A DNA stretch of 64,000 nt from Candidatus Eiseniibacteriota bacterium (GTDB taxonomy: Bacteria > Orphanbacterota > Orphanbacteria > Orphanbacterales > Orphanbacteraceae), in the NCBI GenBank assembly GCA_029262235.1, contig JAJCZU010000006.1, forward strand, positions 198,934 to 262,933. The letters run 5' to 3'. This document shows positions 2,820 through 49,799 of this stretch, one piece after another. The notes beneath the pieces were generated by a model. The model was not told the origin of the DNA. It was given only the letters and a program-made list of their open reading frames with translations, and did not search any database. The position numbers and the translations under genes were made by a program. Numbering within the stretch: the stretch's first letter is position 1; each line of letters begins with the position of its first letter.

Positions 2820-2843
2820 TCGTTCGATTCCCGGGGAAAGGTG

Positions 2844-2873
2844 TTGACCGGCGTCGGGAGCGATTTCTATTAT
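2844..2873 (+). promoter_or_regulatory. Sigma-70-type promoter for the lipoprotein gene
   Basis: TTGACC (2844-2849) is followed after 18 bases by TATTAT (2868-2873), which continues as TATTATAACC. Transcription should start near 2880, about 34 bases before the GTG start at 2914. The same layout (TTG-hexamer, 18 bases, TATTATA) occurs before mraZ. Confidence 0.65.
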
Positions 2874-2913
2874 AACCGAGTCCCGTTGAACCGCACAGGA
2901 AAGAGGAGGCTTC

Positions 2914-3510: not shown

Positions 3511-3551
3511 GAGCGTCGGGCATCGCGTGAAGCCGCCGCCGGCGCGCTCCT
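3509..3551 (+). terminator. Possible terminator hairpin after the lipoprotein gene
   Basis: AGGAGCG (3509-3515) pairs with CGCTCCT (3545-3551) around a loop that contains a smaller GCC/GGC hairpin. There is no clear T-run directly after it, so intrinsic termination is uncertain. Confidence 0.3.
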
Positions 3552-3587
3552 CTACAAGTATCATTTCTCCATGATGGATATCTGACG

Positions 3588-4820
3588 ATGAAAATACGCC
3601 CTTTTGACAGCAAGAAGGATTTGAAAGACGTCTATCGCATCTGGCGTGAAGTCGGATGGATCGAAGGAGAGAAGAACGACGAGAAAGGTCTCGCCGCTTT
3701 TCTGAAGGGCAGCGCCGGCTTCGTCGCCGAGCATGCGGGCGCAGCCGAGTGCGCCGTCTTTTCGCAGCCCGGCACCATCCGGTATCTGGCGAGCGAACTG
3801 CCGTTTTCGTGTGTTACGGCGGTGACAACGAGCCGCATCGCGCGGCGTCTCGGACTGGCCGGCGGGATGACGGCTTCTCTCGTCAGAAAAGCGGCCGACG
3901 AGGGCGCTCTCGTCGCCGGGCTCGGCATGTTCGAACAGGGCTTTTACGACAAGCTCGGATTCGGCTCGGGAAATCTGGAGCACATCGTTACGTTTCGTCC
4001 CGCCGATCTCATGCTGCCGGGCAAGGCGCGGATTCCCGTTCGTCTCGGCATCGAAGACGCCGATCGTATGCACCGGAACAGGCTTGGTCGCATGAGGCGC
4101 CATGGCGCATGCCGGATTACGTCTCCCGGCGTCACGCAGGCCGAGGCGTTCTGGACGAGCAGCAGCAGTTTCGGTCTCGGGTACGAAGACGAGAACGGCG
4201 AACTCACCCATCACGTCTGGTTCGGCAAGATGACGGGCGAGAATGGCCCCCTGCGTCTCGACTGGCTCGCGTTCCGCACGTGGGAAGAGTTCCGGGAACT
4301 GCTTCTGCTGATCAAGGGGCTCGGCGACCAGGTATGGACGGTCGCGATGCTGCAGCCGGCCGGCGTGCAGATTCAGGATCTCATTCGCGGCCCGATTGCG
4401 TCGTACCATCGTACGAAGGGAAACGATCACGTCACGATGAACCGCGGAATCGCGTGGTGGCAGATGCGGATGGTCGATGTTGCCGGGTGCTTTCTGAAGA
4501 CGTCGCTCGCCTGCGATGATATCGCGTTCCAGTTGCGCGTTACGGATCCGATCGCGGAGAAGCTTGACGATGCCGGATGGCGCGGTGTTGCCGGCGATTA
4601 CATCGTGAAGCTCGGTTCTGAGTGCCGGGCGGAAGCCGGGCGTGGAAAGGATCTGCCTGTTCTCGAAACCGACGTCGGAAGCCTCACGCGGATGTGGCTC
4701 GGTGTCCTGCCTGCAAGCGGCCTGGCCGCGATTGGTCGTCTCAAAGCCCCCGACGAACTCCTCGCCGCGCTCGATCGTGCGTTCGCGCTCCCGGAACCGA
4801 AACCCGACTGGTCGTTCTAG
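3588..4820 (+). CDS. Eis-like GNAT acetyltransferase with SCP2-like C-terminal domain
   Basis: This 410-residue protein matches the size and layout of Eis-family N-acetyltransferases (two GNAT folds and a C-terminal sterol-carrier-like domain). The N-terminal GNAT core shows the acetyl-CoA loop RRLGLAGGMTASLVRKA (about 86-102) and the later motif FYDKLGFG (about 119-126). The protein ends in Phe (PDWSF). In mycobacterial Eis the carboxylate of a terminal Phe is the catalytic base, so the matching end is notable. Eis enzymes acetylate amines of aminoglycosides or peptides; the substrate here cannot be read from sequence. The ATG at 3588 has no strong ribosome binding site. The neighbours are unrelated. 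Confidence 0.8.
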   Translation: MKIRPFDSKKDLKDVYRIWREVGWIEGEKNDEKGLAAFLKGSAGFVAEHAGAAECAVFSQPGTIRYLASELPFSCVTAVTTSRIARRLGLAGGMTASLVRKAADEGALVAGLGMFEQGFYDKLGFGSGNLEHIVTFRPADLMLPGKARIPVRLGIEDADRMHRNRLGRMRRHGACRITSPGVTQAEAFWTSSSSFGLGYEDENGELTHHVWFGKMTGENGPLRLDWLAFRTWEEFRELLLLIKGLGDQVWTVAMLQPAGVQIQDLIRGPIASYHRTKGNDHVTMNRGIAWWQMRMVDVAGCFLKTSLACDDIAFQLRVTDPIAEKLDDAGWRGVAGDYIVKLGSECRAEAGRGKDLPVLETDVGSLTRMWLGVLPASGLAAIGRLKAPDELLAALDRAFALPEPKPDWSF

Positions 4821-5017
4821 CGCCCCCCGCAATTCGCGGATTCCGACCACTTGGTAGGCAGCGTGCGTCCACACGGTGGGCGGCCGTTCCCCTGCGCCAC
4901 CGCCTTTGATTCGCCCCTTCGCGCTCTTTGAACCACACTCTGCGCCGCTATTCCCCGATTGAAACGAACGGCATGGCTCTTGCGTGACACCTGCTTTCAT
5001 GGGCCGGGGGCGGTCAG

Positions 5018-7996: not shown

Positions 7997-9580
7997 TGTT
8001 CGCGGCAGGCGCTCGAGTTCGGCACGCGCCGGATAGAAGTCGGGCTGTACGCGCAGCGCGTTACGGAACGCTTCCGCTGCATCCGCGGTCCGCCCCGTCT
8101 TCGCGAACAGGATGCCTTGATTGAGGTACACGAGATGGAGCGAACCGGAAGCGGCCCCTTCCTGGATCGCGAGCTGAAAGTGTTCTTCCGCCCTAATGAA
8201 GTCTCCGAGCTGTGCGTAGAAGGTTGCGATCTCGGTGTCCTGTTTCGCGAAACCGTAGTACTCGAACTGATCGGTGCGCACGAACAACCAGACAGCGAGT
8301 ACCGCGGTCCCGTAGATGGTCGCCTGCCGGAACGATCGCTTTCGGACCGCGTCCCACGTCGAGACGAGGCCGAACGCGGCGAGCGGAATCAGGCCGACGG
8401 CGATCGGCAGGCGATAGCGGCTCGTGACGTACAGAACGAGCAGGGAGAACAGATAGGCAAACGTATAAATGAGAACGGCTCCCGTCTCGCGCCATCGCCG
8501 GCACGAAAGAGCGAAGCCGAGTACGCCAAATGGTGCAATGAACTGAAATGCGGGCAGGAACCCGCGAAAGAGAGGGGAAAAGCGCCCGAAGAAATATTGA
8601 TTGTAGTTGTCGGGAACTTCATACCAGTTCCAGGCGAGAACGAACTTGCGACCGATCAGACCGAGTTCACGACCGGGATTCTCGAGTGCGAACCGAATAG
8701 CCTTGCGCATCCAGAAGGCGGATACCTCGGATGGCTTCAGTGCCCGACCAGATTCCCGTTCGGCGAGTCGCTTCGCATCCGTTTCCTCGTGCTCGGGGAC
8801 GGTCCGCACGTTGTCGGGAGGAGTATGCACACCCGTTGCTGCGGGATTGTTGCCGACGAAGAGATTGATGCCGGCGTCCGATTCCGTCATGACCCAGTCG
8901 TTTCCCACGACTCGATTGCGCGCCGTGACGGGCGCGATCGCGAGGAAAACGCCGACCAGAAAAACGAGGGCGGGCACGATGCGTCGTTTCTTCGCCCGAT
9001 CCCGGAGCGCGATCCAGGCGAGTAGAAACGGGAGCGCGAGAAGTAGATTGCCGCGCCCGCAGACGGCGATTCCATAGAGAAGTCCTCCGCCGAAGAGCAC
9101 GCGGTTCGTGAACGGGCGATCGGTCCTGGAGAGGACGAGGAGTGCGAGAGAGACGAAAAACAGGATGACGACCGATTTCAGCAGCATGTTGTCTTGAAAG
9201 ATGAATGTGCTGTAGGTCGCTGCGAGGAGACCGGCGACGACTCCCGCCCGGGTCCCGTACAGGCGGGTCGTCAGCAGAAACAGGAGGACGCACGTGGCCG
9301 ATCCGAGAACGGACTGTACCGCGCGCACAGCCGTGAAATCGCGTCCGAAAATCGTGTAGAGCGAACCCAGAAAATAGGGATAGAGCGGGGACTGATAGAA
9401 AACCTGATCGCCGGCCCAGTTCCCTCCCGCGATCTCCGCGGCGTGACGATCGTAGGCCGCGGCATCGATCATGAGCCGATCGCCGTAGGGCGTCTGGTTC
9501 AGATCGCTCAGGAACCAGAGTCGAAGAGCGAGCGCCAGTACGAAAATCACGGCGCTCCACAGCTTTCTGGAATGCATCAT
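7985..9580 (-). CDS. GT39/ArnT-type membrane glycosyltransferase with C-terminal TPR
   Basis: The 531-residue protein begins with a membrane segment (SAVIFVLALALRLWFL) followed by an Asp-containing periplasmic loop (DAAAYDRHAAEIAGG) and YQSPLYPYFLG, the arrangement of the GT-C superfamily (protein-mannosyl or lipid-linked sugar transferases). About ten further hydrophobic segments run to residue 440. The last 80 residues form about one and a half TPR units (YLNQGILFAKTGRTADAAEA, FRNALRVQPDFYPARAEL). GT39 enzymes transfer sugars from polyprenyl phosphate on the outer face of the inner membrane; acceptor and donor are unknown here. The ATG at 9580 is followed in frame by a second ATG. It is divergent from comM, with 71 bases between starts. 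Confidence 0.82.
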   Translation of the reverse strand: MMHSRKLWSAVIFVLALALRLWFLSDLNQTPYGDRLMIDAAAYDRHAAEIAGGNWAGDQVFYQSPLYPYFLGSLYTIFGRDFTAVRAVQSVLGSATCVLLFLLTTRLYGTRAGVVAGLLAATYSTFIFQDNMLLKSVVILFFVSLALLVLSRTDRPFTNRVLFGGGLLYGIAVCGRGNLLLALPFLLAWIALRDRAKKRRIVPALVFLVGVFLAIAPVTARNRVVGNDWVMTESDAGINLFVGNNPAATGVHTPPDNVRTVPEHEETDAKRLAERESGRALKPSEVSAFWMRKAIRFALENPGRELGLIGRKFVLAWNWYEVPDNYNQYFFGRFSPLFRGFLPAFQFIAPFGVLGFALSCRRWRETGAVLIYTFAYLFSLLVLYVTSRYRLPIAVGLIPLAAFGLVSTWDAVRKRSFRQATIYGTAVLAVWLFVRTDQFEYYGFAKQDTEIATFYAQLGDFIRAEEHFQLAIQEGAASGSLHLVYLNQGILFAKTGRTADAAEAFRNALRVQPDFYPARAELERLPRTSPQ

Positions 9581-9651
9581 AAGGCCTGTTTCCTTCCGGT
9601 CGGAAGATAGCGGGTCCCCAGCAGTGCGTCAAACATCGGAAGGGAGAGCCA

Positions 9652-11178
9652 TTGCTCGCAAGAGTGTACTCGGGGGTCGTGATCGGAATCGACGGGCGGA
9701 TCGTCGAAGTAGAGGCTGATCTGGCCGGGGGCCTGCCGTCGTTCACGGTCGTCGGGCTTCCCGGCACGGCCGTCCGCGAATCGAGGGAACGCGTGGCGGC
9801 GGCGGTACGCAACAGCGGGCTCTCGTTTCCCGCCCGCCGGATTACGATCAATCTGGCGCCGGCATCCATCCGCAAGGAGGGGGCTCTTTACGATCTTCCG
9901 ATCGCGGTCGGCATTCTGGCGGCATCGAAGCAGATCCGAACTGAAGGTCTCGAGAAGCTCTTGATCCTGGGCGAACTTTCGCTCGACGGGAGGCTCCTGC
10001 CGGTCAGGGGTGTTCTTTCGATCGTGCTCGGCGCAAGGGATGCCGGTCTCACCGGTCTCGTCGTTCCGGAGGAGAACGCGGAAGAAGCGTCTGCGGTCAC
10101 GAGCCTGCGGCTCTGGTCGGCGCGCAACCTGGAAAGTGCACTTGCCGTACTGCAGAATCCGGCTGCGCACGCAACCTACCGGCGCAAAGGATCGAGGCCG
10201 GGCAGAGCCGCGCACGCGATCGACTACGCGGATGTCCGGGGACAGATTCTCGCGAAACGCGCCGCGGAAGTCGCCGCTGCCGGTGGGCACAATCTGCTTC
10301 TCGTAGGATCTCCCGGTTCCGGCAAGACAATGATCGCCCGGCGCCTTCCCACGATTCTTCCTCCCCTGTCAGAGGAGGAAGCGCTCGAGTCGACCCGCGT
10401 TCATTCGGTCGCGGGTACGCTGCCGTCCGGTGTCTCTCTGCTCCGGGACCGGCCGTTTCGGGCGCCGCATCACTCGGTTTCCGACGCGGGGCTTCTCGGA
10501 GGCGGATCGCATCCCCGCCCCGGCGAAGTCTCACTTGCGCATCATGGCGTGCTCTTCCTCGACGAACTCCCGGAATTCCGGCGGGGCGCGCTCGAGGCCC
10601 TTCGTCAGCCGGTCGAGGAGGGCAGCGTCCGCGTCGTGCGCGCCGCCGCTTCGGTTCGATTTCCGTCCCGCTTCCTGCTCGTTGCTGCGATGAATCCCTG
10701 TCCCTGCGGCTATCTGGGTGAAACGCGATGCGCGTGCGATCCGTCACAGGTGAGCCGATACGCGGGCAAACTTTCCGGCCCTCTCCTCGACAGGATCGAT
10801 CTGCAGGTCGAAGTGGCTCGTGTGCGAAAGGAAGATCTCGCGGGAGGAGCGGATGGCGAGCCGTCAGCGTCGATTCGCGAACGTGTGGCCAGGGCGCGCA
10901 CGCTTCAGGTCGATCGCTACGGTTCGGCACTTCTTCGCAATGGCAGCGTGGAGCCCGGTGAACTCATCGCGCGCGGCAACTTCAAGTCGGACGCGGTTTC
11001 GTTCCTGGGAAACGGAATGGACAGGATCGGGTTTTCGGCGCGCGCCTACAATCGTATTCTCCGGGTCGCCCGCACCATTGCGGACCTTGCCGCGGAAGAT
11101 GCTGTGGAAGAGAGACACATCGCAGAAGCGATTCGCTATCGGTTGATGGACCGTCCTCGTTATGCGGGGAGCGCATGA
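9652..11178 (+). CDS. comM: YifB/ComM-family Mg-chelatase-like AAA+ ATPase
   Basis: This 508-residue protein has the full YifB layout. An N-terminal Lon-protease-like S5 fold (MLARVYSGVVIGIDGRIVEV) comes first, then a Walker A motif GSPGSGKTMIARRLPTILP (about 219-237) and a Walker B segment GVLFLDELPEF (about 299-309). A cysteine-rich loop NPCPCGYLGE...CACDPSQVSRY and the C-terminal helical domain follow. The start is a TTG at 9652, chosen because the family begins MLARVYS and GGGAG lies just upstream. ComM promotes branch migration of integrating DNA during natural transformation; that role is known for proteobacterial homologues and is only presumed here. The stop lies 10 bases from the convergent exporter gene. 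Confidence 0.94.
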   Translation: MLARVYSGVVIGIDGRIVEVEADLAGGLPSFTVVGLPGTAVRESRERVAAAVRNSGLSFPARRITINLAPASIRKEGALYDLPIAVGILAASKQIRTEGLEKLLILGELSLDGRLLPVRGVLSIVLGARDAGLTGLVVPEENAEEASAVTSLRLWSARNLESALAVLQNPAAHATYRRKGSRPGRAAHAIDYADVRGQILAKRAAEVAAAGGHNLLLVGSPGSGKTMIARRLPTILPPLSEEEALESTRVHSVAGTLPSGVSLLRDRPFRAPHHSVSDAGLLGGGSHPRPGEVSLAHHGVLFLDELPEFRRGALEALRQPVEEGSVRVVRAAASVRFPSRFLLVAAMNPCPCGYLGETRCACDPSQVSRYAGKLSGPLLDRIDLQVEVARVRKEDLAGGADGEPSASIRERVARARTLQVDRYGSALLRNGSVEPGELIARGNFKSDAVSFLGNGMDRIGFSARAYNRILRVARTIADLAAEDAVEERHIAEAIRYRLMDRPRYAGSA

Positions 11179-11188
11179 GAAGGAATGG

Positions 11189-12055
11189 TCAGCCTGGGCC
11201 GGGAGTTCCCGTCGCGGGCCGCTGCTTTTCCAGAATGACGAGCGCGATGCCGCCCAGGATTGCGACGGTCGCAATCGCGAGTCGCATCGTCAGGTCTTCT
11301 CCCAGGAAAAGGATTCCCCCGAACGCCGCGATCACGGGAACGCTGAGCTGTACGGTTGCCGCGTGGGATGCCTTGAGGCCGGGGAGAGCGGAGTACCAGA
11401 TGGCGTAGCCGATACCGGAGGTCAGCGCGCCGGATGCAGCAGCGTACGCGATACCGGCAACCTCAAGGGAGCTGCTCCGGAACGTGAGCGCGCTCAGGAT
11501 GACAGCGACAGGGACCGCGCGTATGAAATTGCCCGCGGTTACCTGGACAGGGTCACCGGCGGAGCGTCCACGAAGCGAATAGATACCCCATGAGATGCCG
11601 GCGACCAGCATGAGCAGGCCCCCCGCGAGCGGCGGGGCGGACAGGCCGGGCAGCAGGAGTCCGATCAGCCCGGCGGAAGCGAGACCGATCCCGGCGATCT
11701 GTGGGCCGCGCAGTCGCTCGCCTGACAGGATGCCGTGTCCGATCATCGTTACCTGCACGGCTCCGAACAAAAGGAGGGCACCGGTGCCGGCCGGCAGTGT
11801 CAGGTAGGCGAACGAAAAACCGGCGGCGTATGCAAACAGCGCCAGTGCCGACAGCCACGTGCCTTTTCCCTGCGGTGACACGCTCCGCAGTTGCACGATG
11901 ATCCAGAGAGCGATCGCTCCGGCGATCAGGCGCACGGCCGTGAAACTGGCGGCATCCATATCCGTATGCGTGAGGCCCGCGCGACAGAGGAGTGAATTCC
12001 CCGCGAAAGCGGTCATGGCGAGAGTCGTGAGAATCGCGAGCCGGGATTGAGACAT
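11189..12055 (-). CDS. EamA/DMT-superfamily exporter
   Basis: The 288-residue protein has ten predicted membrane segments in two EamA repeats (for example LAILTTLAMTAFAGNSLLCR and GIAYAAASGALTSGIGYAIW). This is the standard length and fold of drug/metabolite transporters. The C-terminus has the typical PVIAAFGGILFLGEDL helix. The ATG at 12055 is chosen because AAAGGAG lies six bases upstream; the frame remains open further upstream but overlaps the YaiI gene and is not coding there. Substrate is unknown; relatives export amino acids, metabolites or drugs. It lies 47 bases after the yaiI-family gene on the same strand and is probably cotranscribed with it. Confidence 0.88.
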   Translation of the reverse strand: MSQSRLAILTTLAMTAFAGNSLLCRAGLTHTDMDAASFTAVRLIAGAIALWIIVQLRSVSPQGKGTWLSALALFAYAAGFSFAYLTLPAGTGALLLFGAVQVTMIGHGILSGERLRGPQIAGIGLASAGLIGLLLPGLSAPPLAGGLLMLVAGISWGIYSLRGRSAGDPVQVTAGNFIRAVPVAVILSALTFRSSSLEVAGIAYAAASGALTSGIGYAIWYSALPGLKASHAATVQLSVPVIAAFGGILFLGEDLTMRLAIATVAILGGIALVILEKQRPATGTPGPG

Positions 12056-13209: not shown

Positions 13210-14676
13210 TTACGGCCCCCGAAACGGCAGGCGGAATTCGCGCCGCACGCCCGTCAGTGAATCGACGAGTACGATCGTATGTTCGAACGGGGCGGAGAAA
13301 TCCGTGCGCGCCATCGTGGCGAACAGGGGTATCTTCGAATCGCCGAGCGACGGGAGCGCAAGCCGCGCGCGCGGCACCACGTAGTCGATATGCACAGGAT
13401 CACCGCTCGCGTCTTCGAGCGCCTGCATGCCGGGGTCTTCGGTCGTCTCGACGAGCACGATCATTTCGCGGGTCGATTTGTTCTGCACGTGCAGCGTGTA
13501 CTGATTCTCGATCCTGCCGTCATGGATTCGAAACGGGAGTCCCTGCGGGCGGAGCAGTGTAACTTCGAGCGGGGTTCTGCGCGACGCCACAGCCGTAAAC
13601 ACGCTCGCCCCGATCAGGAGCAATACGAGATAGATCGCGAAGCGCGGCCGTAACAGGGAGCGCCGCTTTCCGGTCTCGAATCCGCGCTCCGAGTCGTACC
13701 GGATCAGGCCCTTCGGTTTATCCACCTTCTCCATGATGGCATCACAAGCGTCGATGCAGTTCGTGCAGCCGACACACTCCATCTGCACACCGTTTCGGAT
13801 ATCGATCCCGGTCGGACACACGGCTACGCAGCGAAAGCAGTCGACGCAGTCTCCGCCGGAGTCGAGCTTCCTGCCGCGTGGCTCACCGCGCTGCCTGTCA
13901 TACCCGATCGTAATCGTGTCGGCGTCGACGAGGGTGGATTGCAGGCGCCCGTACGGACAGATGATCAGGCACGTCTGCTCACGAAACCAGGTGAAGTCGA
14001 AGAAGAGAACGGCGGTCCAGAACATGCTCCAGAAGAACGCGGTGGGGTGAGCCCCCGGCCGGCTCCGTACGACTTCGAGCAGCTCTTTCACGGGAATGAA
14101 GTACGACAGAAACACGTGCGCCGTTACATACGCAAGAGCGAGAAAGATCGAAAGCTTAACCGCCTTGCGCCAGAACCTGTCGAGCGTCAGGGGGCCCTGG
14201 TTGCGGCGTATGCGGCGCTCTCCCGGACCCTCGATCCAGCGCTCGATGCGACGGAACACGCCTTCCAGAAACACGGTTTGCGGGCATGCGTAGCCGCACC
14301 AGACCCGTCCCCACAGTGAAGTGACGAAGAAGAGCGCGAATCCCATCCCCGAGATCAGAAAGAACACGAGGTAGAAGTCCTGGCTCGTGAAGACGAAACC
14401 GAACAGGTGGGCGACCCGTCCGGGAATGTCGATATGAACCGCGGGAGCACCCTGGATCGTGATCCACGGCAGAAGCACGTAGAATGCGAGCAGCAGGGCC
14501 CACACGATGTTCTTGCGCACCTGCCATTTGCCGTGCACATCGGCGGGGTGCAGGAAGTTGCGCGATCCGTCCTCGTTGATGGTGTAGAGCGTCTCGAGAT
14601 CGGGACGCCGCGCGCGCGGTCGTCCGGTGCGCGTGCCGCCTGCCGGTTTCCTGTTCTCCATCCCCGTTTCGTTCAT
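13210..14676 (-). CDS. ccoG: Cytochrome c oxidase accessory protein CcoG (polyferredoxin)
   Basis: The 488-residue protein has five membrane segments in the first 330 residues, with conserved GRVWCGYACPQTVFLEGVF and CLIICPYGRLQS. A dicluster ferredoxin domain follows with DCVDCFRCVAVCP and ECVGCTNCIDAC, and then a C-terminal Ig-like FixG domain (YTLHVQNKSTREM). CcoG/FixG/RdxA reduces copper for cbb3 oxidase assembly in studied proteobacteria. It is the last gene of the cco operon, seven bases after ccoP. An ATG at 14676 is used; the next (M6) is a plausible alternative. It converges on the OmpA-domain remnant. Confidence 0.95.
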   Translation of the reverse strand: MNETGMENRKPAGGTRTGRPRARRPDLETLYTINEDGSRNFLHPADVHGKWQVRKNIVWALLLAFYVLLPWITIQGAPAVHIDIPGRVAHLFGFVFTSQDFYLVFFLISGMGFALFFVTSLWGRVWCGYACPQTVFLEGVFRRIERWIEGPGERRIRRNQGPLTLDRFWRKAVKLSIFLALAYVTAHVFLSYFIPVKELLEVVRSRPGAHPTAFFWSMFWTAVLFFDFTWFREQTCLIICPYGRLQSTLVDADTITIGYDRQRGEPRGRKLDSGGDCVDCFRCVAVCPTGIDIRNGVQMECVGCTNCIDACDAIMEKVDKPKGLIRYDSERGFETGKRRSLLRPRFAIYLVLLLIGASVFTAVASRRTPLEVTLLRPQGLPFRIHDGRIENQYTLHVQNKSTREMIVLVETTEDPGMQALEDASGDPVHIDYVVPRARLALPSLGDSKIPLFATMARTDFSAPFEHTIVLVDSLTGVRREFRLPFRGP

Positions 14677-14682
14677 GGCTGT

Positions 14683-15249
14683 TCAACCTTCTTCCGGCTC
14701 ACCCTCGGGGTCCTTGCCGGGAAGCTGCTTTCCCTTGATGCTGCTGATCAGAAAGGCCGTCACGTCCTGGATCTTGCTCGGGCTCATCGATTCGCCCCAG
14801 GCGACCATGCCCTTTTCGGGAACTCCGTTCGTGATCGTCGTATAGATCTGAAGGGGCTTCCCGCCGTGGAGCCAGTACCGATCCGTCAGATTCGGTCCGA
14901 TCGAACCGCTTCCGTCCGCGAGGTGGCATTCGACGCAGTTCTGGACCCAGATCCGGGAGCCGGCATCGACGCGATCGGGAATCCGGGAAACGAGGATGAG
15001 CGACTCATCCGAAATGTCCATGCCTTCCATGCGCGCGAGCTGTTCCGCGGCCGCACTGGCGACTTCGGCGCGGTAGGCTTCGAGCGGAAGCGTTCCCCTG
15101 TCGAACGTATGGACGATGCCCCAGTAGAGGAATGAGAAAATGATCGTGCCGTACAGGAGCCAGAGCCACCAGTTCGGCATCCGGTTGTCGTACTCCTGTA
15201 TCCCGTCGTACTCATGATCAAACAGTTCGTCTTTTCTATGTTGAGCCAT
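14683..15249 (-). CDS. ccoP: cbb3 oxidase subunit CcoP-like, single-haem c-type cytochrome
   Basis: The 188-residue protein starts at the ATG at 15249, overlapping the ccoQ stop. The N-terminus is the FixP/CcoP signature (HEYDGIQEYDNRMPNWW) followed by one membrane helix (LWLLYGTIIFSFLYWGIVH). The periplasmic part holds a single haem c site, C105-VE-C108-H109, with a probable Met ligand in GMVAWGESM. Canonical CcoP carries two CxxCH haem sites and is about 300 residues; here the first haem domain is replaced by a short helical linker (about 55-95). The protein would bring electrons to CcoNO in the periplasm. The family call is secure; the single-haem form is the unusual part. Confidence 0.92.
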   Translation of the reverse strand: MAQHRKDELFDHEYDGIQEYDNRMPNWWLWLLYGTIIFSFLYWGIVHTFDRGTLPLEAYRAEVASAAAEQLARMEGMDISDESLILVSRIPDRVDAGSRIWVQNCVECHLADGSGSIGPNLTDRYWLHGGKPLQIYTTITNGVPEKGMVAWGESMSPSKIQDVTAFLISSIKGKQLPGKDPEGEPEEG

Positions 15250-15449
15250 TAGATTCTCTCCTTCGCATCGGAGGGAACCGTGATTTCGTCGGATTCCAGC
15301 GGCATGACTGCGAGGTCGTGCCACTGGTCTCGTGAGCGTCTCCAGACGAGAACACGGAACAGAACGGCGAGGAACACCGTGAAGAAGATCCCGAACCCGA
15401 TCACGGGCCATAGCAGTAGATCGCTGGAAGCAAAGAACTGTTTATACAT
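15249..15449 (-). CDS. ccoQ: CcoQ-like small membrane subunit
   Basis: A 66-residue protein with one membrane helix (LLWPVIGFGIFFTVFLAVLF), a basic WRRSRD motif after it and an acidic tail matches CcoQ, which stabilises cbb3 oxidase. Its start codon shares a base with the ccoNO stop and its stop overlaps the ccoP start, so position as well as topology supports the call. Confidence 0.85.
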   Translation of the reverse strand: MYKQFFASSDLLLWPVIGFGIFFTVFLAVLFRVLVWRRSRDQWHDLAVMPLESDEITVPSDAKERI

Positions 15450-17917
15450 CAGTTACCGCCTTCCAAGGCCGCCGCGCTCTCGAGCGCGGTAGGCTGCGGA
15501 CCGCGCCCCAGCCTCTGCAGATAGGCGATGACGGCGAGCAGCTCGCTTTCGGTCTTGATCTCGATTTCCTGTTCCGCCAGATCGGTCGCGAGCAGCAGCG
15601 CCTGCGAACGGGCTGTTTGTGCGGCTGTTCGGATGTCGGACTCGGAGTAGGGGACGCCGAGGCGCCGAAGCGCCTCCATCTTGCGGGAGATGGCGTCGAA
15701 ATCGACGGCGGCGTCCGTTAGAAAGCGATAGCTCGGCATGGTCGAGCCGGGAGAAGTGGCGCGCGGATCGCGCATATGAATGTAATGCCAGAGGCTCGGG
15801 TACTTGCCGCCCGTCCGATGCAGGTCGGGACCGATCCGGCGCGAACCCCACTGAAACGGATGATCGTAAATGAACTCCTCGGCGCGCGAGTATTCGCCGT
15901 AGCGCAACGTTTCGTGACGCATGGGGCGGATCATCTGCGTATGACAGTTGAAGCAGCCTTCGCGTACGTAGATGTCGCGCCCGGTGAGCTCGAGGGGGCT
16001 GTACGGCTGCTGCGTGAACGCGGAAACGACCGCGTGTGCTGCGGCCTTTTCAACCGATCCTGGTGCCCCGCCCGGCGTTCCCGTCCCGCCCGCGTTTCCC
16101 GCGCCGTCAGTCGTGCCTGACGCGATCAACGCCGCGCTCGAGTCGGGTGTGGTCGCTTTCGCTTCCGCAGCCTGTGGCGTGAGCGGTACTTCGTGACGGA
16201 TAATGACGCTCGGAATCAGCTCGGCCAGTCCACCGATCAGAATCGCGACCACCGTGAGAATCGTGAACGCGAGCGGGCGGCCTTCGAGCAGGCGGTGCCA
16301 GTTGTCTTTTCCGAGTCCGATCGCCAGAATCGCCGCGACAACGAGGCTCGCAAGAAAGCCGGCGACGGCGCCCTGTGTGAGCGGGCTCGCGATTCCGAAC
16401 AGCACGGTGCCGACGACAACGAGAAGAGAGAGGACGACCGGCCATCCGCGGATCAGTTCCCAGGTGCTCGGCCCGGCAAATCCGGTACGAACGACGACGC
16501 GATCGGCGCTCACTACGGGTTTCCCGGCACGCGCGGTCATGATCAGATTGAACGCCATCGCGAGAAATCCCAGCAGGTAGACGGTGCCGCCGATCATGCG
16601 CATCAGATACAGGAAGCGCGCGGAGACGAGCCACTCGACGAAATCGGGGTAGAGCAGAAAACCCTCCGCGTCGAGCGCCCGCCAGTAGAGGCCCTGATTG
16701 ATGCCTGAGATCCACATTGCGACTACATAGAGCAGAATGCCGAACGTGCCGGTCCAGAAGTGGGCATCGGCGAGCTGGGTAGACCAGAGCTTCGTGCCGA
16801 ACAGCCGGGGTACCAGCCAGTAAAACATCCCCGCCGCCATGAAACCGTTCCACCCGAGCGTGCCTCCGTGGACGTGTCCGATGATCCAGTCGGTATAGTG
16901 CGCGAGGGAGTTGACGGACTTGATCGAAAGCAGCGGGCCCTCGAACGTCGACATGCCGTAGAACGTGAGCGCGACGACGAAGAACTTGAGCACGGGATCC
17001 GTCTTCAGCTTGTCCCACGCCCCCCGCAGCGTCAGCAGCCCGTTCAGCATGCCGCCCCACGACGGCGCGAGCAGGATCAGACTGAAGAGCATGCCCGTTG
17101 ATTGCGCCCAGTCGGGAAGGGCCGTGAACAGCAGGTGATGCGGACCGGCCCATATATAAAGGAAGATCAGAGCCCAGAAGTGAACGACGGAGAGCCGGTA
17201 CGAATAGACCGGGCGCCCGCACGCTTTGGGAATGAAGTAATACATGATGCCCAGGATCGGCGTCGTCAGGAAGAAGCCGACGGCATTATGCCCGTACCAC
17301 CATTGCACGAGCGCGTCCTGCACTCCCGCGTAGATCGGGTAGCTGTGAACGAAACTCGTGGGCAGTTGCAGGTTGTTCACGATGAAGAGCACGGGAATCG
17401 TGACGATCGTCGCGATGTAGAACCAGAGCGAAACGTACAGGTTCTTTTCGTTTCGCTTCGCGAGGGCCCAGAAGAAATTCACGGAGAACGCGACCCACGA
17501 AACGGCGATCAGGATATCGAGCGGCCAGATCAGTTCCGCGTATTCCTTTGCCTGTGTAAGGCCGAGCGGAAGGGAGACGGCTGCGCCCACGATCGCGAGC
17601 TGCCATGTCCAGAAGTGGACCCAGCTCAGCCCGTCGGATCCCATGCGCGCCTTGATCAGGCGCTGTGTCGAGTAGTAGATCCCGGCGAACATCATGTTGC
17701 CGACGAATGCAAAAATTGCCGCGTTCGTATGAAGCGGCCGCAGCCGCCCGAATGCCATCCACGACGTGCTGAAGTTCGCCTGCCAGAAAACGAGCTGAAC
17801 GGCGAGAAGCACGCCGACGCTCATCGCCACGACGGCAAACGCGACCGACGCCACGATAAACGCGCGGACGATTCTGTCGTCGTAAACGATCTCCCGTTTC
17901 AGAGCATCGGTTGTCAT
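15449..17917 (-). CDS. ccoNO: Fused cbb3-type cytochrome c oxidase subunits I and II (CcoNO)
   Basis: This 822-residue protein joins CcoN and CcoO. Residues 1-470 are the twelve-helix haem-copper core, with haem and CuB histidine segments such as RPLHTNAAIFAFVGN, WYGHNAVGFFLT, GPHHLLF and IIGHVHGGTLGWNG. After extra helices, a Gly/Ala/Ser/Thr-rich linker (about 577-637) leads to the CcoO part with C655-FN-C658-H659 and the family block QMIRPMRHETLRYGEYS and YDHPFQWGSRRIGPDL. It reduces oxygen at high affinity and pumps protons in the inner membrane. Fusion of N and O is known in several phyla; the long flexible linker is distinctive. The gene overlaps ccoS (ATGA) and ccoQ. Confidence 0.96.
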   Translation of the reverse strand: MTTDALKREIVYDDRIVRAFIVASVAFAVVAMSVGVLLAVQLVFWQANFSTSWMAFGRLRPLHTNAAIFAFVGNMMFAGIYYSTQRLIKARMGSDGLSWVHFWTWQLAIVGAAVSLPLGLTQAKEYAELIWPLDILIAVSWVAFSVNFFWALAKRNEKNLYVSLWFYIATIVTIPVLFIVNNLQLPTSFVHSYPIYAGVQDALVQWWYGHNAVGFFLTTPILGIMYYFIPKACGRPVYSYRLSVVHFWALIFLYIWAGPHHLLFTALPDWAQSTGMLFSLILLAPSWGGMLNGLLTLRGAWDKLKTDPVLKFFVVALTFYGMSTFEGPLLSIKSVNSLAHYTDWIIGHVHGGTLGWNGFMAAGMFYWLVPRLFGTKLWSTQLADAHFWTGTFGILLYVVAMWISGINQGLYWRALDAEGFLLYPDFVEWLVSARFLYLMRMIGGTVYLLGFLAMAFNLIMTARAGKPVVSADRVVVRTGFAGPSTWELIRGWPVVLSLLVVVGTVLFGIASPLTQGAVAGFLASLVVAAILAIGLGKDNWHRLLEGRPLAFTILTVVAILIGGLAELIPSVIIRHEVPLTPQAAEAKATTPDSSAALIASGTTDGAGNAGGTGTPGGAPGSVEKAAAHAVVSAFTQQPYSPLELTGRDIYVREGCFNCHTQMIRPMRHETLRYGEYSRAEEFIYDHPFQWGSRRIGPDLHRTGGKYPSLWHYIHMRDPRATSPGSTMPSYRFLTDAAVDFDAISRKMEALRRLGVPYSESDIRTAAQTARSQALLLATDLAEQEIEIKTESELLAVIAYLQRLGRGPQPTALESAAALEGGN

Positions 17918-18099
17918 TTGGTTTCTTCCTCCTGCGGATCTCCGGCCCCCGTGAATCGTTTCGATTCATCCTCCAGGGGAAGCAGAGAGAGTCGGTCTCC
18001 ATGTTCGAAATCGCCCTCCTTCACGCATCGCGCGAAGAGGAGAAGGCCCAGAAAGACCAGGACCATACTGACGAAGATCGTGATGATCAGAGCTTCCAT
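17914..18099 (-). CDS. ccoS: cbb3 oxidase maturation protein CcoS
   Basis: The 61-residue protein has one membrane helix (LIITIFVSMVLVFLGLLLFA) and then the CcoS pattern GDFEHGDRLSLLPLEDE. CcoS is needed for cofactor insertion into cbb3 oxidase. The start overlaps the end of ccoI by 13 bases and the stop overlaps the ccoNO start (ATGA). Confidence 0.92.
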   Translation of the reverse strand: MEALIITIFVSMVLVFLGLLLFARCVKEGDFEHGDRLSLLPLEDESKRFTGAGDPQEEETK

Positions 18100-20516
18100 G
18101 CGGTTCGCACTCCTGTAAATGAGTGAACGGTATAGGTAAGAATCAAAATCGAACTGGCGGGCATGGCGAGCGCCGCCACGAGGGGACTGACTCCGCCCGC
18201 AAGCGCCACGGAGATGGCGGCGATGTTGTAGAGCGCGGCAAGGATCAGGATGTTGCGTGTAACGAGCCGCAGCCGCCGCGCCTGGGAAAGCGCCATGCGG
18301 ACGGCGGCGATGCCGTCACCCAGGTAGTAGAAATCCGTGCGTGATGAAACCGCGGGGTGATCGATCGCGGGTGTGGCGGCGCAACTCGCTTCGCTGAGGG
18401 CGGGACCGTCGTTCAAGCCGTCGCCCACCATCAGGCTCGGTTCACCTGCCCATTGCCTGACCGTGCGCGCCTTCTCCTCCGGGTCGAGCCCTGCCAGAAC
18501 GCGATTCTCCGGAATGCCGATCGCATGCGCCACACGTCCGGCCGCCAGCGGACCGTCGCCGGTCAGGATCGCGATGTCGAAACCCATTTGATGCAGCCGG
18601 GTCACTTCGTCGCGTGCGTCTTCTCGAATCTGTTCTTCCAGTCGAATGCGGAGCAGAGGGACGCCGTCGCGGGAGAAGAACGTTTCTTCCCCGGCATCCG
18701 GAAGCGCGGCAAGCGTGGCGAACGGGGCGCTGCCGAGCCGGTACAGCGCGCGATTCATGACGAGTTCGAGGCCGCGCCCGGCCACTTCCCGCACGGCCCG
18801 GTCCGGATCGGCGGTCGCCTGCTGATTCAGTTCGTTCCAGAGCGCGCGGCTGACGGGGTGGTTGCTGCGCGCCGCCATTCCGGCGAGCACCTGGCGGTCT
18901 TCGGCCTGCAGCGCGAACAGCGCCTGGCGAGAAGCCGGGTCGAGGCGCAGTCTTCCGTTCGTGAGCGTTCCTGTCTTGTCGAAAAGGATGCGCCGAATGC
19001 GGAGCGCGCGGTCGAGGAAGTGCGGTTTCCGTACGAAGATACCGGCACGCCGAAGCCCGTTGTGCGCCAGTTCGCGTGCGAGGGGCAGGGCGAAGCCGAT
19101 CGCGCAGGGGCATGTGATGACGAGCAGCGAGATCGTGATCGGAATCGCGCGCTCCCAGTCGTGACGCCAGACGAAGAGCCCGGCGCATGCGGTCAGGAGC
19201 ACGAACGCGACATAGATCAGGCTCACGTTCCGCCACCAGCGATCCTCGCCGCCCGCGGTGTCCGTGTCGCGATCGTCCGGAGCGCCTCCTGGAGCGCCGG
19301 ATCCGCCGAGAAGCGCGACCAGCTTCGATTGAGCGAAATCTTCGATCGCGCGCACGCGAAGCATCTCCTCGCCCGCGTTCGTCGCGCCGGCCGGGAGCGC
19401 GACATCCGTTCGCGTCGTGAACACACGCGGCTCGCCCGTAATCCAGTCGAGCTTGTACGCGGCCCGTTCCTGCAGGGGGAGTGCGCGGACCGGTACGAAT
19501 TCTCCCGGAACGATCCAGAGCTCGTCGCCGGCATGGATGTCGCGCACCGGAACAGAAGCGACACGATCCCCCGTGCGCCTCCGCGCGTAGAGGTGATCCA
19601 CTCCCGCGCCCCGCAGCAACGCACGCCGGTTTCTCTCCACGGCGCGCTGCTGCAGCCATCGGCCGGCGACCATGAACGTCACGAAAGCGGAAGTCGTGTC
19701 GTAATACGCAAACTCGGGACCACGTGTCAGGTGCATCGCAACGGAGCTTGCGAACGCGAGTGCGATGCCGAGCGCGATCGGGAGGTCGAGGTGGACGAGG
19801 CCGCGTCGCGCGCCGCGCAGAACGGATCGAAAGAAGAGGTCGCCGCCGACGATCGTCGTGATGCCCGCGAACACGAGTCCGAGATAGCCGAGAATCGTGT
19901 AGAGCGGTTCGTCTACCGGCGAAAGCCCGAAGTAGAAACATGCCGATACGATCATGACGTTCATCGCGGCGGAAGCGCAGATCCCGAGGCGTGTCAGCAA
20001 TCCTCTGTCGGGGCGGCTGTTGTCGGCACCCGCCGGTCCGAAGCGATACCCGAAGCGTTCCACATCGCGCAGGAATGCCCGGGGTGTTCCGATCCGCGGG
20101 TTCCACGAGAGTACCAGTTCTCCCCGCGCCGGATTCACGCGCACCGCGTCGATTTCGTCATGCCGCTTGCCGAGTTCCTGCATCAGCCAGACGCACGCCG
20201 CACAATGCACTCCCTGTACATCGAGTTCGAGCCGGCACGATGTGCCCGTTTCGTCGACGGGCGATTCCTCGACGGCCGCGGCGAGCCAGGCGAGCGGTGA
20301 CGAGCTTCCCGTCCGCACGGGGGCTGTGGGTCCGTTCCTGAGCTCGTAGTATCGGGTCAGTCCTTCCTCTGCGAGAAGGGCGTGGACCGCTTCACATCCG
20401 GCGCAGCAGAAACGGGAACCGCGTTCGATTCGCGACCTCGGGATCGGGAGATCGCAATGAACGCATCCCGGCGTCCGCGCTCTGGCATCGGCGTGAGAAT
20501 GGAGGGCCGTCGCCAC
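18087..20516 (-). CDS. ccoI: Copper-translocating P1B-type ATPase CcoI/FixI
   Basis: The 809-residue protein opens with the FixI-type cysteine domain (GCVHCDLPIP and RFCCAGCEAVHALL), then an HMA domain (VQGVHCAACVWLMQELG). Membrane helices, the CPC transport motif in ITCPCAIGFALPLA, the phosphorylation site DKTGTLT, the HPVSR motif and GDGLNDGPALSEAS complete a P1B-ATPase. A putative phosphatase loop WITGEPRVF replaces the usual TGES. It exports copper to the periplasm for the cbb3 CuB centre. It lies four bases after the SafE-like gene. The opposite strand has a long open frame that is a compositional shadow. Confidence 0.95.
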   Translation of the reverse strand: MATALHSHADARARTPGCVHCDLPIPRSRIERGSRFCCAGCEAVHALLAEEGLTRYYELRNGPTAPVRTGSSSPLAWLAAAVEESPVDETGTSCRLELDVQGVHCAACVWLMQELGKRHDEIDAVRVNPARGELVLSWNPRIGTPRAFLRDVERFGYRFGPAGADNSRPDRGLLTRLGICASAAMNVMIVSACFYFGLSPVDEPLYTILGYLGLVFAGITTIVGGDLFFRSVLRGARRGLVHLDLPIALGIALAFASSVAMHLTRGPEFAYYDTTSAFVTFMVAGRWLQQRAVERNRRALLRGAGVDHLYARRRTGDRVASVPVRDIHAGDELWIVPGEFVPVRALPLQERAAYKLDWITGEPRVFTTRTDVALPAGATNAGEEMLRVRAIEDFAQSKLVALLGGSGAPGGAPDDRDTDTAGGEDRWWRNVSLIYVAFVLLTACAGLFVWRHDWERAIPITISLLVITCPCAIGFALPLARELAHNGLRRAGIFVRKPHFLDRALRIRRILFDKTGTLTNGRLRLDPASRQALFALQAEDRQVLAGMAARSNHPVSRALWNELNQQATADPDRAVREVAGRGLELVMNRALYRLGSAPFATLAALPDAGEETFFSRDGVPLLRIRLEEQIREDARDEVTRLHQMGFDIAILTGDGPLAAGRVAHAIGIPENRVLAGLDPEEKARTVRQWAGEPSLMVGDGLNDGPALSEASCAATPAIDHPAVSSRTDFYYLGDGIAAVRMALSQARRLRLVTRNILILAALYNIAAISVALAGGVSPLVAALAMPASSILILTYTVHSFTGVRTAWKL

Positions 20517-20520
20517 CGGA

Positions 20521-21252
20521 CTACCAGATCACGAACGGTCCGAGTGACAGGGAGGGGAGGAAGCCCCAGCCACTCGAAGAGCGCAGCAGAAGTTGAAGGG
20601 ATGCGACTACGATGAGGCCGCGTGCGACGGAGGTCATGCGGAGGCGCGAGCGACTCGAAAGCCTGCCATAGCCGAGGGCGATGAGCGCGAGCGCGGGAAC
20701 CGTGCCGAGTCCGAACCACGACAGGGCGATCATCCCTTCGCGGGCATGGCCGGTCGCGAGCGCGCGGATGAGTACGGCGAACGTCGCCCCGCAGGGGAGC
20801 AGCCCGTTCGTGAGGCCGAGCGCGAAGAGTCGACCCAGGCGATGCACACGGCCGAAGACGGAGCGCACCATCGCGGCGAATCGGGCCCAGAGCGGCGACG
20901 GCGTTGCGTGCCCGAGCGCGCCCGCCCCGATTACGGCGCCGAGCATCAGGATGCCCGCACCGAACGAGAGCCCCGCCTGAAAAGACGGTGTGTTCGCCTG
21001 CGTAAGGAGTCCGAATGCGCCCCCGAGGCCGCCGAGAACGGCACCGAGAATCACGTAGGCGGTCAGTCGGCCTGCATGATAGGTCGCGAGCGTTCCCGCG
21101 ATCTCACCGCGCTTCGCGCCGGCACGCGGTGCGGACCACGCCAGAACGAGCGGGCCGCACATGCCGGTGCAATGCCCGACGCTCATGAAAAGCCCGGTGG
21201 CAAGGAGCAAAACCGCATCAGTCGACTGAAAGTGCGTCGCGCAACAATCCAA
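20521..21252 (-). CDS. SafE/DsbD-like membrane protein of the cbb3 assembly cluster
   Basis: The 243-residue protein has six membrane segments and the paired motifs VGHCTGMCGPLVLAW (about 26-40) and TNGLLPCGATFAVL, each with a cysteine in a membrane helix as in DsbD/CcdA-type electron carriers. Proteins of this family (sulfite exporter TauE/SafE-like, DsbD_2) commonly sit beside ccoI and ccoS. A role in moving reductant or copper for oxidase assembly is inferred from that. The apparent start is a TTG at 21252 with GGGGGA upstream; no ATG is available before the conserved first helix. It is the first gene of the cco operon. Confidence 0.83.
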   Translation of the reverse strand: MDCCATHFQSTDAVLLLATGLFMSVGHCTGMCGPLVLAWSAPRAGAKRGEIAGTLATYHAGRLTAYVILGAVLGGLGGAFGLLTQANTPSFQAGLSFGAGILMLGAVIGAGALGHATPSPLWARFAAMVRSVFGRVHRLGRLFALGLTNGLLPCGATFAVLIRALATGHAREGMIALSWFGLGTVPALALIALGYGRLSSRSRLRMTSVARGLIVVASLQLLLRSSSGWGFLPSLSLGPFVIW

Positions 21253-47455: not shown

Positions 47456-47508
47456 CGATCAGCCCCGGTAAAGGGGCGGGCCTGATGGAACCCAGGGGGA
47501 AAGCGAAA

Positions 47509-47536
47509 GCCCTGCCGATCTTGCGATCGGCAGGGC
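47509..47536 (+). terminator. Strong hairpin terminator between ftsZ and the convergent peroxidase gene
   Basis: GCCCTGCCGATC (47509-47520) pairs perfectly with GATCGGCAGGGC (47525-47536) around a TTGC loop. A T-rich stretch (CGCTTTCTAT) follows on the plus strand and an AAAGC-rich stretch flanks it on the other side, so it may stop transcription from both convergent genes. Confidence 0.85.
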
Positions 47537-47564
47537 CGCTTTCTATCACACTTCGAACATGAGC

Positions 47565-49799
47565 CTATCGAAGAATCGTCATCTTTCTACTGCCTTGCTC
47601 TTCCCCGTTCACGTAGAGCCGCGCGAAGTAAATCCCGTTGCCGACGTCCTGCCCCGCATCGTTCCGTGAGTCCCAGCCCACGACATGCGTGCCGCGCGTC
47701 ATCGAACGGTTCAGCAGCGTGCGGACCTGGCGTCCGGCCACGTTGTACACCTCGATCAGCACGTCGGCAGGGCCGTTCGTGATCGAGAAGTCGATCGAGG
47801 TGGAACGGTGGAACGGGTTTGGCGCGGCGCGCCCCAGCATCGCGTTCGATACCGGTCGCGAGGGGCTGGCGTCTTCCACGCCGGTCGGAAGCTGTTCGTA
47901 GCCCCCGATGGTTTTCACGTACTCTACGATGAAGTCGATCTCGTCGGAGTTCAGAATCGACGTGACGCCGTGAAGATCGTTCGGGTTGAGCGCCGTAGGC
48001 GAGATCGTCTGCTTGATCGAGTTCGCCGCATGGTGATGGAAGTAGGGGCCTGTGTCCCAGACGCCCATCAGCGAAGGCGTATCGAAGCCGGGTGCACCGA
48101 GCGTATCGCCGATCGCGGCCGTTCCGACGTCGTGAATCACGAACGGGTTATTGCCGAGATTCGAATCCGTGAAATACGGCGGAGCGTGACAGCCGGCGCA
48201 GCCGACTACAGGATCGAAGAAGAGCGCGCGGCCGCTGTCGGCGGTCGCCGAGAGCGGTTCACCAGGCCCGAGCGTGGGCGTGTCCGAGCGCAACGTCTGC
48301 GTGGCCATGAACGCGGCGAGGTCATCGAGATTGGCGCTCATGCCCGCATTCGGCGGTCCCAGTTTCGGGTTCGGCGTACCCGCGATCAGGCCCGGGCCGA
48401 ACTGGAGATCGCGGATTCCGAATTCGTGGTCCTGCATCTCGTCCATCGATGCGGTCCAGTTGTGCGCTCCGGTCAGAGCGATCGCGCGCATGTCCGGCGT
48501 GGCTCTCTTGTGCGCCCCGAACTGGCTGAAGTCCCAGTCGCGGCCGTCGGCCGTGCCGAATACGTGGCAGCTGTGACAGCTGTGCCTGTTGTCGATCGAC
48601 AGATCGCCACGCGATGAGAAGAAGAGTTGTTTCCCGTTCAGGACGCTGGCGCTGTACGGCTCCCAGGTTGCGGCCGTGACGGTCGTGACCACCGTGTCCG
48701 CCGCCGTGCTGATGACCGTGATGTCGCGGCTCAGCCAGTTGTGAACGAAGATGCGTTCGAGTGTCGGAGCTACGACAGCGCCGAGGGGGCCTTCGCCGCA
48801 CCGGATCACCGTGTCTTCGACAGCCGTCTTGATATTTCCTGACAACACCGTGATGTCACCGCTGGAAATGTTCGGAACGAACATTCTGCCGCCGTGAAAT
48901 TCCGTGGCGATCGGGCCGCTCGTCGGAGTGCCGACGATGGACGATTTGTACGTCTGGGACATTTCCGTGAACCCGGACTGGTCCTTGCGGATATTGACGG
49001 GGCGGAGGACCGAGGTCGTGATGTCGGTCGCTTCGAGCGCGCCCCCGACAAGGTGGCCGTCGAGCGTATTGATATGCGTGGCCGGCAGAATCAGGAACGT
49101 ATCGGCCGGAGCGGGCTGAATGTTCAGGCTGATGATGCAGGAAGGGTATCCCGCGCCGGGGGCAAATATGTTGCCGTCCTGCAGGACCAGGATCTCCTGT
49201 TTCTGCCAGATGGAACTCGTATCCTGAAATACTTTGGTCACGCGCGTGTTGGAGACGTCCACGAAGAGAAGGGTCGAGACGTAGAATCGTGCGTTGTCGG
49301 CCCACGCGATGCCGTGAGGACGCCGGTAAAGGCTGATCGTAGCGTCAATTGTCCGCGTCGACACATCGACGATAAACGCTTGATCGCTTCCGGAGGCGGT
49401 GACGGCCGCTTTCGTGCCGGCCGCATTGAACGCGACACCATAGGTATCGAACCCGAGATCCGGGATCGTGTCGATTGCCGTCTTCGTCGCCGCGTCGATG
49501 ACCACAATTGCGTCGGCCCGTTTGCACGCGACCCACACTTCGCCGTTCGATGGATGCACCGCGAGACACCACGGCTCCTGCATCACGCTGATTTCCGTGA
49601 TCAGTGTATTTTCGTTTACGCCCTGGGCTCCGATGACCCCGACGGCATTGTGGTCCGGCATGACATACCAGACTTCCATTTCGTCGGGTGTAATGTCGAT
49701 CGGGCGTGAGTTCGTGGCGGCCGCTGCGGTCGTCGAAGACACCAGAGACAAGACCGCGACCCCGAGACTCAGGGCAATGAGAGTCGATCTCATTCGCAT
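47565..49799 (-). CDS. Secreted YVTN-propeller / dihaem cytochrome c peroxidase-like fusion with sorting tail
   Basis: The 744-residue protein starts at the ATG at 49799 (GGAGG upstream). A signal peptide (LSLGVAVLSLVSSTTAAAA) leads to a seven-bladed-type propeller of about 370 residues with YVTN-like blades (LAVHPSNGEVWVACKRADAI, VVIDAATKTAIDTIP). A cytochrome domain follows with two haem c sites, C408-HS-C-H412 and C534-AG-C-H538, and MauG/peroxidase-like phrases (FFDPVVGCAGCHAPPYFT, DTPSLMGVWDTGPYFHHHAA). The last 90 residues are the sorting domain (VYNVAGRQVRTLL, WDSRNDAGQDVGNGIYFARL, RKMTILR). It is predicted to act outside the cell as an electron-transfer or peroxidase-type protein. Confidence 0.87.
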   Translation of the reverse strand: MRMRSTLIALSLGVAVLSLVSSTTAAAATNSRPIDITPDEMEVWYVMPDHNAVGVIGAQGVNENTLITEISVMQEPWCLAVHPSNGEVWVACKRADAIVVIDAATKTAIDTIPDLGFDTYGVAFNAAGTKAAVTASGSDQAFIVDVSTRTIDATISLYRRPHGIAWADNARFYVSTLLFVDVSNTRVTKVFQDTSSIWQKQEILVLQDGNIFAPGAGYPSCIISLNIQPAPADTFLILPATHINTLDGHLVGGALEATDITTSVLRPVNIRKDQSGFTEMSQTYKSSIVGTPTSGPIATEFHGGRMFVPNISSGDITVLSGNIKTAVEDTVIRCGEGPLGAVVAPTLERIFVHNWLSRDITVISTAADTVVTTVTAATWEPYSASVLNGKQLFFSSRGDLSIDNRHSCHSCHVFGTADGRDWDFSQFGAHKRATPDMRAIALTGAHNWTASMDEMQDHEFGIRDLQFGPGLIAGTPNPKLGPPNAGMSANLDDLAAFMATQTLRSDTPTLGPGEPLSATADSGRALFFDPVVGCAGCHAPPYFTDSNLGNNPFVIHDVGTAAIGDTLGAPGFDTPSLMGVWDTGPYFHHHAANSIKQTISPTALNPNDLHGVTSILNSDEIDFIVEYVKTIGGYEQLPTGVEDASPSRPVSNAMLGRAAPNPFHRSTSIDFSITNGPADVLIEVYNVAGRQVRTLLNRSMTRGTHVVGWDSRNDAGQDVGNGIYFARLYVNGEEQGSRKMTILR

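Follow-up and report, generated by a model that had tools for sequence, protein, structure and literature searches.

On the minus strand of the window, by which the whole analysed stretch of 64,000 nucleotides is meant, lies a gene encoding a protein of 744 amino acids (P0001) in which a propeller, a dihaem domain and a sorting tail follow one another. The ends given in the initial annotation (47565-49799) are exact, the reading frame starts with ATG, and GGAGG occurs 11 nt 5' of this start. The gene stands alone, downstream of an ABC-transporter pair and convergent with ftsZ, and a search around it gave no sigma-70 promoter-like site. Its features, with the evidence for each, are as follows.

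47565-49799, minus strand: complete P0001 gene, propeller plus dihaem domain plus T9SS tail (open reading frame and domain models)
49716-49799, minus strand: residues 1-28, a putative Sec signal peptide recognised by eye
48681-49715, minus strand: YVTN-type beta-propeller, residues 29-373 (TIGR02276, match to 1l0q, own HMM)
47892-48680, minus strand: dihaem (CcP/MauG/HZS-gamma-like) domain, residues 374-636 (Pfam, structure matches, own HMM)
48564-48578, minus strand: CHSCH, the motif of haem 1 (residues 408-412), in which H412 is the counterpart of HZS gamma His106 (alignment)
48456-48458, minus strand: Trp448, interpreted as the Trp between the haems in CcP/MauG (alignment)
48429-48443, minus strand: acidic residues D453, E454 and D457, the same in 6/6 clade members (alignment)
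48402-48404, minus strand: Gln466, at the place of the CcP distal Glu and of HZS gamma Cys165 (ungapped alignment)
48186-48200, minus strand: haem 2 motif CAGCH, residues 534-538; H538 corresponds to HZS gamma His229 (alignment)
47970-47972, minus strand: His610 (in DLHGVTS), aligned with HZS gamma His332 and predicted to bind haem 2 as its second axial ligand
47568-47825, minus strand: FlgD-Ig / T9SS type A sorting tail, residues 659-744 (TIGR04183, PF13860)
47508-47537, no strand assigned: two-way terminator-like hairpin between the P0001 gene and ftsZ (consensus match only)

Domain calls were made with Pfam and NCBIfam models at their curated cut-offs, and all five models score above them: the YVTN repeat TIGR02276 (54.9 bits, cut-off 27.85), CCP_MauG PF03150 (32.0 bits, cut-off 25.6), cytochrome c PF00034 (22.7 bits, cut-off 21.3), FlgD_ig PF13860 (28.3 bits, cut-off 27) and, at the C-terminus, the T9SS type A tail TIGR04183 (26.3 bits, cut-off 23). 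The initial annotation had joined a propeller, a dihaem domain with CHSCH and CAGCH, and a sorting tail in one polypeptide, and this architecture is borne out over the 744 residues. AlphaFold runs on P0001 and L006 were unusable, with a pLDDT of 36.4 for the full-length protein and 29.7 for the dihaem domain. Elsewhere in the window (13210-21252), a cbb3-type oxidase cluster encodes CcoN and CcoO as one polypeptide (COX1 plus FixO, 822 aa), together with FixP-, FixG-, P-type ATPase- and DsbD-like genes, a set that fits a microoxic life.

A full-length copy of P0001 with 57% identity is found in a genome of another genus (G005), also between the ABC-transporter pair and ftsZ, and family f76, placed outside the phylum by its kinship label, holds four near relatives with 46-50% identity, two of them truncated by contig ends. 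Because of this copy and the f76 relatives, comparison of sequences indicates that P0001 is not a chance frame. Local BLASTP gave 46-56% identity to P0001 for L008, L078, L116, L117 and L118. Contig ends cut L117 a few residues into the tail and L078 before it; the tail is complete in P0001, L008, L116 and L118, the last of which has DUF11 repeats ahead of its propeller. The order of propeller, dihaem domain and tail noticed at the outset thus recurs complete in L008, L116 and L118, and the predicted T9SS-tailed form is conserved along its whole length, with 47-57% identity, inside and outside the phylum. Within the phylum, P0001 is dispensable, as the protein is absent from 5/7 genomes, one of these five being 82% complete.

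As a single sequence searched against the PDB (phmmer), P0001 matched a YVTN S-layer protein (1.8e-15), then HZS γ (2.7e-12) and then peroxidases (1.9e-4). A five-row family profile again placed the YVTN protein on top, then HZS γ (4.5e-31, over positions 371-604), followed by HZS β (6.3e-25), the best CcP (1.7e-22) and MauG (1e-8). Among solved structures, the dihaem half is closest to HZS γ, followed by HZS β. HZS β and γ (HzsB/HzsC) are fused in Ca. Scalindua japonica, the propeller preceding the dihaem part. This order is that of P0001, which also shares with HZS the His pair at haem 2 and the HDVGT, FDTP and HGxTS motifs of HZS γ. Unlike HZS β-γ, however, P0001 has no adjacent α gene and carries an additional T9SS tail, and while HZS γ has Cys165, Asp168 and His144, P0001 lacks the first two and has Trp in place of the third. 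The candidate identification of P0001 as a hydrazine synthase itself was rejected on four counts, namely the position in the tree, the haem-site residues, the missing Tyr591 of the α-like protein, and scores far below the cut-offs (the NCBIfam HZS βγ models gave 53.5 bits for HZS γ with a cut-off of 625, and 52.4 with a cut-off of 1250).

Before 2025, HZS was thought to be without homologs beyond anammox bacteria (PMC12758564). Hägglund et al. 2025 then found fused βγ homologs to be prevalent in environmental bacteria, with a Trp kept at the γHis144 position in clades I-III and key HZS residues lost; the sections consulted give no function for them (PMC12758564). These homologs resemble P0001 in the propeller-dihaem fusion, the retained Trp, the loss of HZS-specific residues and a genome that also encodes an HZS-α-like protein. 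They differ in that the same sections mention no T9SS tail and describe co-localised α and βγ genes, which those of P0001 are not (PMC12758564). Since the fusion was already reported there, and is common in the genomes surveyed here, the idea that it is new in itself was rejected. The contrast originally drawn with separate periplasmic peroxidases therefore does not hold: near relatives of P0001 are also propeller-dihaem fusions, and the closest structure of the dihaem half is HZS γ.

Within the class of G034, 77/145 genomes match the core at E <= 1e-12, and each of the 20 loci opened has both the propeller and the dihaem part in one frame, though only weakly at L041 and L046 because a contig begins there. 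Of 386 genomes, for the most part unrelated, 104 gave a profile match at E <= 1e-15, with three candidates per genome scored; among the matches listed, most hits cover one domain only, and at least 14 genomes have both parts in one frame, a set read by eye that leaves out genomes holding only the L040 type described below. As a control, the three CCPs of the genome of P0001 have no propeller. A phage survey with the core gave no match, and the plasmids yielded two distant relatives, which were added to the profile. The tree used the three CCPs as outgroup and one HZS sequence (two printed pieces), and its deep branches are weak. Surrounded by other fusions, P0001, L008 and L078 cluster together (100/99), apart from HZS γ, which groups with L086, L088, L089 and L091 (91/88). 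A CGxR motif in L088, L089 and L091 resembles the CGRD of HZS γ Cys165 but stands in a different alignment column. The L088 and L091 fusions carry four additional CxxCH motifs before the propeller and lie near PF18582 genes.

Twenty haem-site positions were compared in six members (P0001, L008, L078, L116, L117 and L118), and 17 are identical in all six: C408, C411, H412, W448, D453, E454, D457, C534, C537, H538, H556, D557, D573, Y586, H588, H610 and G611. Positions 456, 459 and 466 vary, the last being Q, Q, M, M, M, M. The ligand residues are thus invariant in 6/6 clade members, and the haem ligands, on which the initial proposal of a dihaem enzyme depended, are intact. The usual second ligand of the C-terminal haem is Met in CcP, and a Tyr serves as haem 2 ligand in MauG. 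No Met was found in P0001 from PYFHHH to the end of the dihaem domain, and His610 stands at the HZS place. Adding 39 to the numbering of chain 5c2v_C gives the published HZS γ numbers, with which Cys102, Cys105 and His106 fit. His229 and His332 are the ligands of haem γII in HZS γ (PMC12607021), and in the sequence alignment H538 falls at His229 and H610 at His332, so that the pair is matched in P0001.

Around haem 1, the pattern differs from both better known families. Ten residues after a conserved Gln is the place of the distal Glu that is catalytic in CcP. All three CCPs of the same genome (L001, L002 and L003) have Glu there, HZS γ has Cys165 and P0001 has Q466 in an ungapped alignment; phmmer puts a one-column gap at this point and pairs HZS γ Cys165 with Leu465 of P0001. 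No Cys was found between the haem motifs of P0001 (residues 412-534), and the third haem bond made by γCys165 has no equivalent. Nor is there an Asp at the aligned place of γAsp168, which lies beside haem γI, the alignment being loose by one column. With neither the peroxidase Glu nor the third Cys of HZS at haem 1, neither activity is therefore assumed for P0001.

These residues bear on whether P0001 could simply be an ordinary dihaem peroxidase that removes peroxide at the surface. Like the peroxidase CcpA, it belongs to the same fold family, has two haems and keeps the Trp (Trp448); PF03150 is above its cut-off, and solved CcPs are among its structural matches. Unlike CcpA, however, P0001 has a propeller and a tail and lacks the distal Glu, which is present in all three CCPs of its own genome and replaced by Gln or Met in 6/6 clade members. 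It also has His rather than Met at the second haem 2 position, although this is a weak yardstick because L001 shows no obvious Met there either. No literature on an E114Q peroxidase was found. Plain peroxide removal, one of the roles proposed in the initial annotation, is weakened by the Gln at the distal Glu place of P0001, and this reading is considered unlikely.

Alternatively, P0001 might act like MauG, MbnH or Rox proteins and oxidise a target held by the propeller, either a partner protein, at one of its residues, or an extracellular polymer. MauG and MbnH share with P0001 the fold family, two haems and the inter-haem Trp, and CcP and MauG carry this Trp at the γHis144 position (PMC12758564). 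The models for MauG (TIGR03791, 28.5 bits, cut-off 443.85), MbnH (TIGR04039, 27.8 bits, cut-off 362.85) and RoxC (14.7 bits, cut-off 900) do match, but weakly and far below their cut-offs, and the HZS γ profile scores higher (53.5). Moreover, the likely haem 2 ligand of P0001 is the His of an HG motif, and no partner-like gene neighbours P0001, with only ftsZ and the ABC pair beside it. Such a role would be improbable.

Concerning the tail, the initial annotation had predicted a surface-exposed enzyme. The sorting tail itself stands, as it scores above the cut-off and the genome encodes a T9SS with SprA and PorU, while surface exposure is kept as a prediction. SprA and PorU are above cut-off in 7/7 phylum genomes, all of which also encode the cytochrome c assembly domain PF01578, and the tail is common in the genome of P0001, where 18 of 183 candidates were scored and all 18 matched. 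P0001 resembles T9SS type A cargo in its putative leader (typical by eye), its terminal FlgD-Ig/Por_Secre tail, and the SprA and PorU of its genome, but unlike such cargo it is a dihaem enzyme. Literature searches for T9SS with peroxidase, with multihaem cytochromes, or for cytochrome c with a sorting domain returned no title on a protein of this kind. TIGR04183 is marginal in the orthologues (22.9 in L008, 22.8 in both L116 and L118, against a cut-off of 23), and the tail call therefore rests on P0001 itself, on FlgD_ig and on similarity.

The tail could then be a mere Ig-like domain on a protein that stays in the periplasm, since FlgD_ig is a general fold and TIGR04183 is marginal in three orthologues. 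Against this, the tail lies at the extreme C-terminus, its last residue is basic, and tails track SprA in the genomes tested. Propeller-dihaem proteins were compared with SprA in 11 genomes from outside the phylum, a survey that left out G529 and G530, and SprA occurs in three (G322, G343 and G486); these are exactly the genomes with a tailed member. SprA is absent from the other eight, for which absence of the tail rests on a family scan (L106, L108 and L079) or on a reading of the C-termini (the rest). A purely periplasmic P0001 is accordingly judged to have a small chance of being correct, and the predicted surface location is supported by genome content.

Tailed fusions are not confined to the P0001 lineage. 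A second protein of the same genome combines propeller, dihaem domain and T9SS tail (L040, 955 aa, G000:C2:691974-695354, frame 340-3207); a porU gene is located some 12 kb away, and the protein has a copy in G001 and has tailed relatives in G343, G486 and G322. Its type forms a separate clade of seven proteins in the tree (100/100), of which five have a tail above the cut-off (L040, L039, L107, L109 and L111) and two have no T9SS tail (L106 and L108). L083 in G322 represents a third tailed propeller-dihaem lineage (TIGR04183, 25.9 bits). L106, L108 and L079, from SprA-less genomes, end in hydrophobic and basic tails that resemble PEP/IPTL/MYXO-type sorting signals by eye.

The genome of P0001 (G000) also encodes an HZS-α-like dihaem protein with a lipobox (by eye), a TolB-like propeller, and the haem motifs CTGCH and CQGCH. 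In the α-like proteins, the 15 residues that follow CTGCH contain no Tyr that could be equivalent to αTyr591. The gene lies at a locus separate from that of P0001 and is the second of nine same-strand frames.

L074 (G000:C4:689000-708000), 1476-11482, same strand: nine-frame α-like cluster (domain models)

The cluster further encodes an NHL propeller that ends in an FlgD-Ig tail, a protein with SH3 and barrel parts, a DUF3570 protein, and proteins of unknown type. Every one of the nine frames has a counterpart in G005, G486 and G474, where the order is the same, and G322 has counterparts of six. The contigs of the four f76 relatives (L122-L125) showed only tail similarity to the cluster, and no literature linking DUF3570 to HZS or T9SS was found.

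Perhaps P0001 and this lipoprotein are parts of a dispersed, surface-located HZS-like complex. PF18582 (HZS_alpha) occurs in 2/7 phylum genomes, G000 and G005, which are the two with P0001 or its ortholog, although the chance of such an exact match is 1 in 21 (p = 0.048). In the survey of 386 genomes, PF18582 was found in 19 (18 above cut-off), and among the matches listed it occurs in 9/14 fusion genomes versus 10/372 others (Fisher p 3e-10, with the fusion set read by eye, genome size uncontrolled and one of the ten below the family cut-off). In G293, G425, G429 and G497, less than 3 kb separates the fusion gene from the PF18582 gene. In the genome of P0001, however, the loci are separate, and the link between fusion and α cluster is not strict, because G474 has the cluster and, among the matches listed, a single weak match to the fusion profile. 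Together with the missing Tyr591 equivalent, this leaves a joint complex doubtful. A still wider proposal would be that some T9SS-bearing phyla possess an outer-surface HZS-like apparatus, made of the tailed βγ-like P0001 and the HZS-α-like haem lipoprotein with its nine-frame cluster of outer-membrane barrels and T9SS-tailed NHL propeller, for an undescribed small-molecule redox reaction; this is a long shot.

Weighing these readings, P0001 is probably (at a probability of about 0.6) an oxidoreductase of the propeller-dihaem, HZS βγ-like family that is exported and delivered by the T9SS. The domains, the ligand residues and their conservation, the T9SS genes and the cytochrome c assembly proteins are read directly from the genomes, and from them a surface location, a ligation state and an activity are predicted. 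From what is generally known of the machines involved, P0001 would be exported by Sec, receive its haems covalently in the periplasm and fold there; the folded protein would pass through the T9SS, PorU would remove the tail, and the enzyme would be anchored at the surface or released. Haem 2, with His538 and His610, may be a six-coordinate electron relay, and the reaction would take place at haem 1, bound by His412 and presumably open on its distal side near D453, E454 and D457; Trp448 would lie between the two haems. The propeller could dock a partner or shape a substrate channel, as has been proposed for HZS β. The likely candidates for its substrate would be small oxidants, for example a nitrogen oxide or peroxide, or the reaction might be the oxidation of a partner polymer.

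Within the literature searched, this putative T9SS-tailed variant of the HZS βγ-like family is new. With its clear ligands, its differing haem 1 site and its predicted transport to the surface, the tailed P0001 offers a case in which the role of the family apart from hydrazine can be examined, and if the proposed route is true, the T9SS would export a protein with covalently bound haem.
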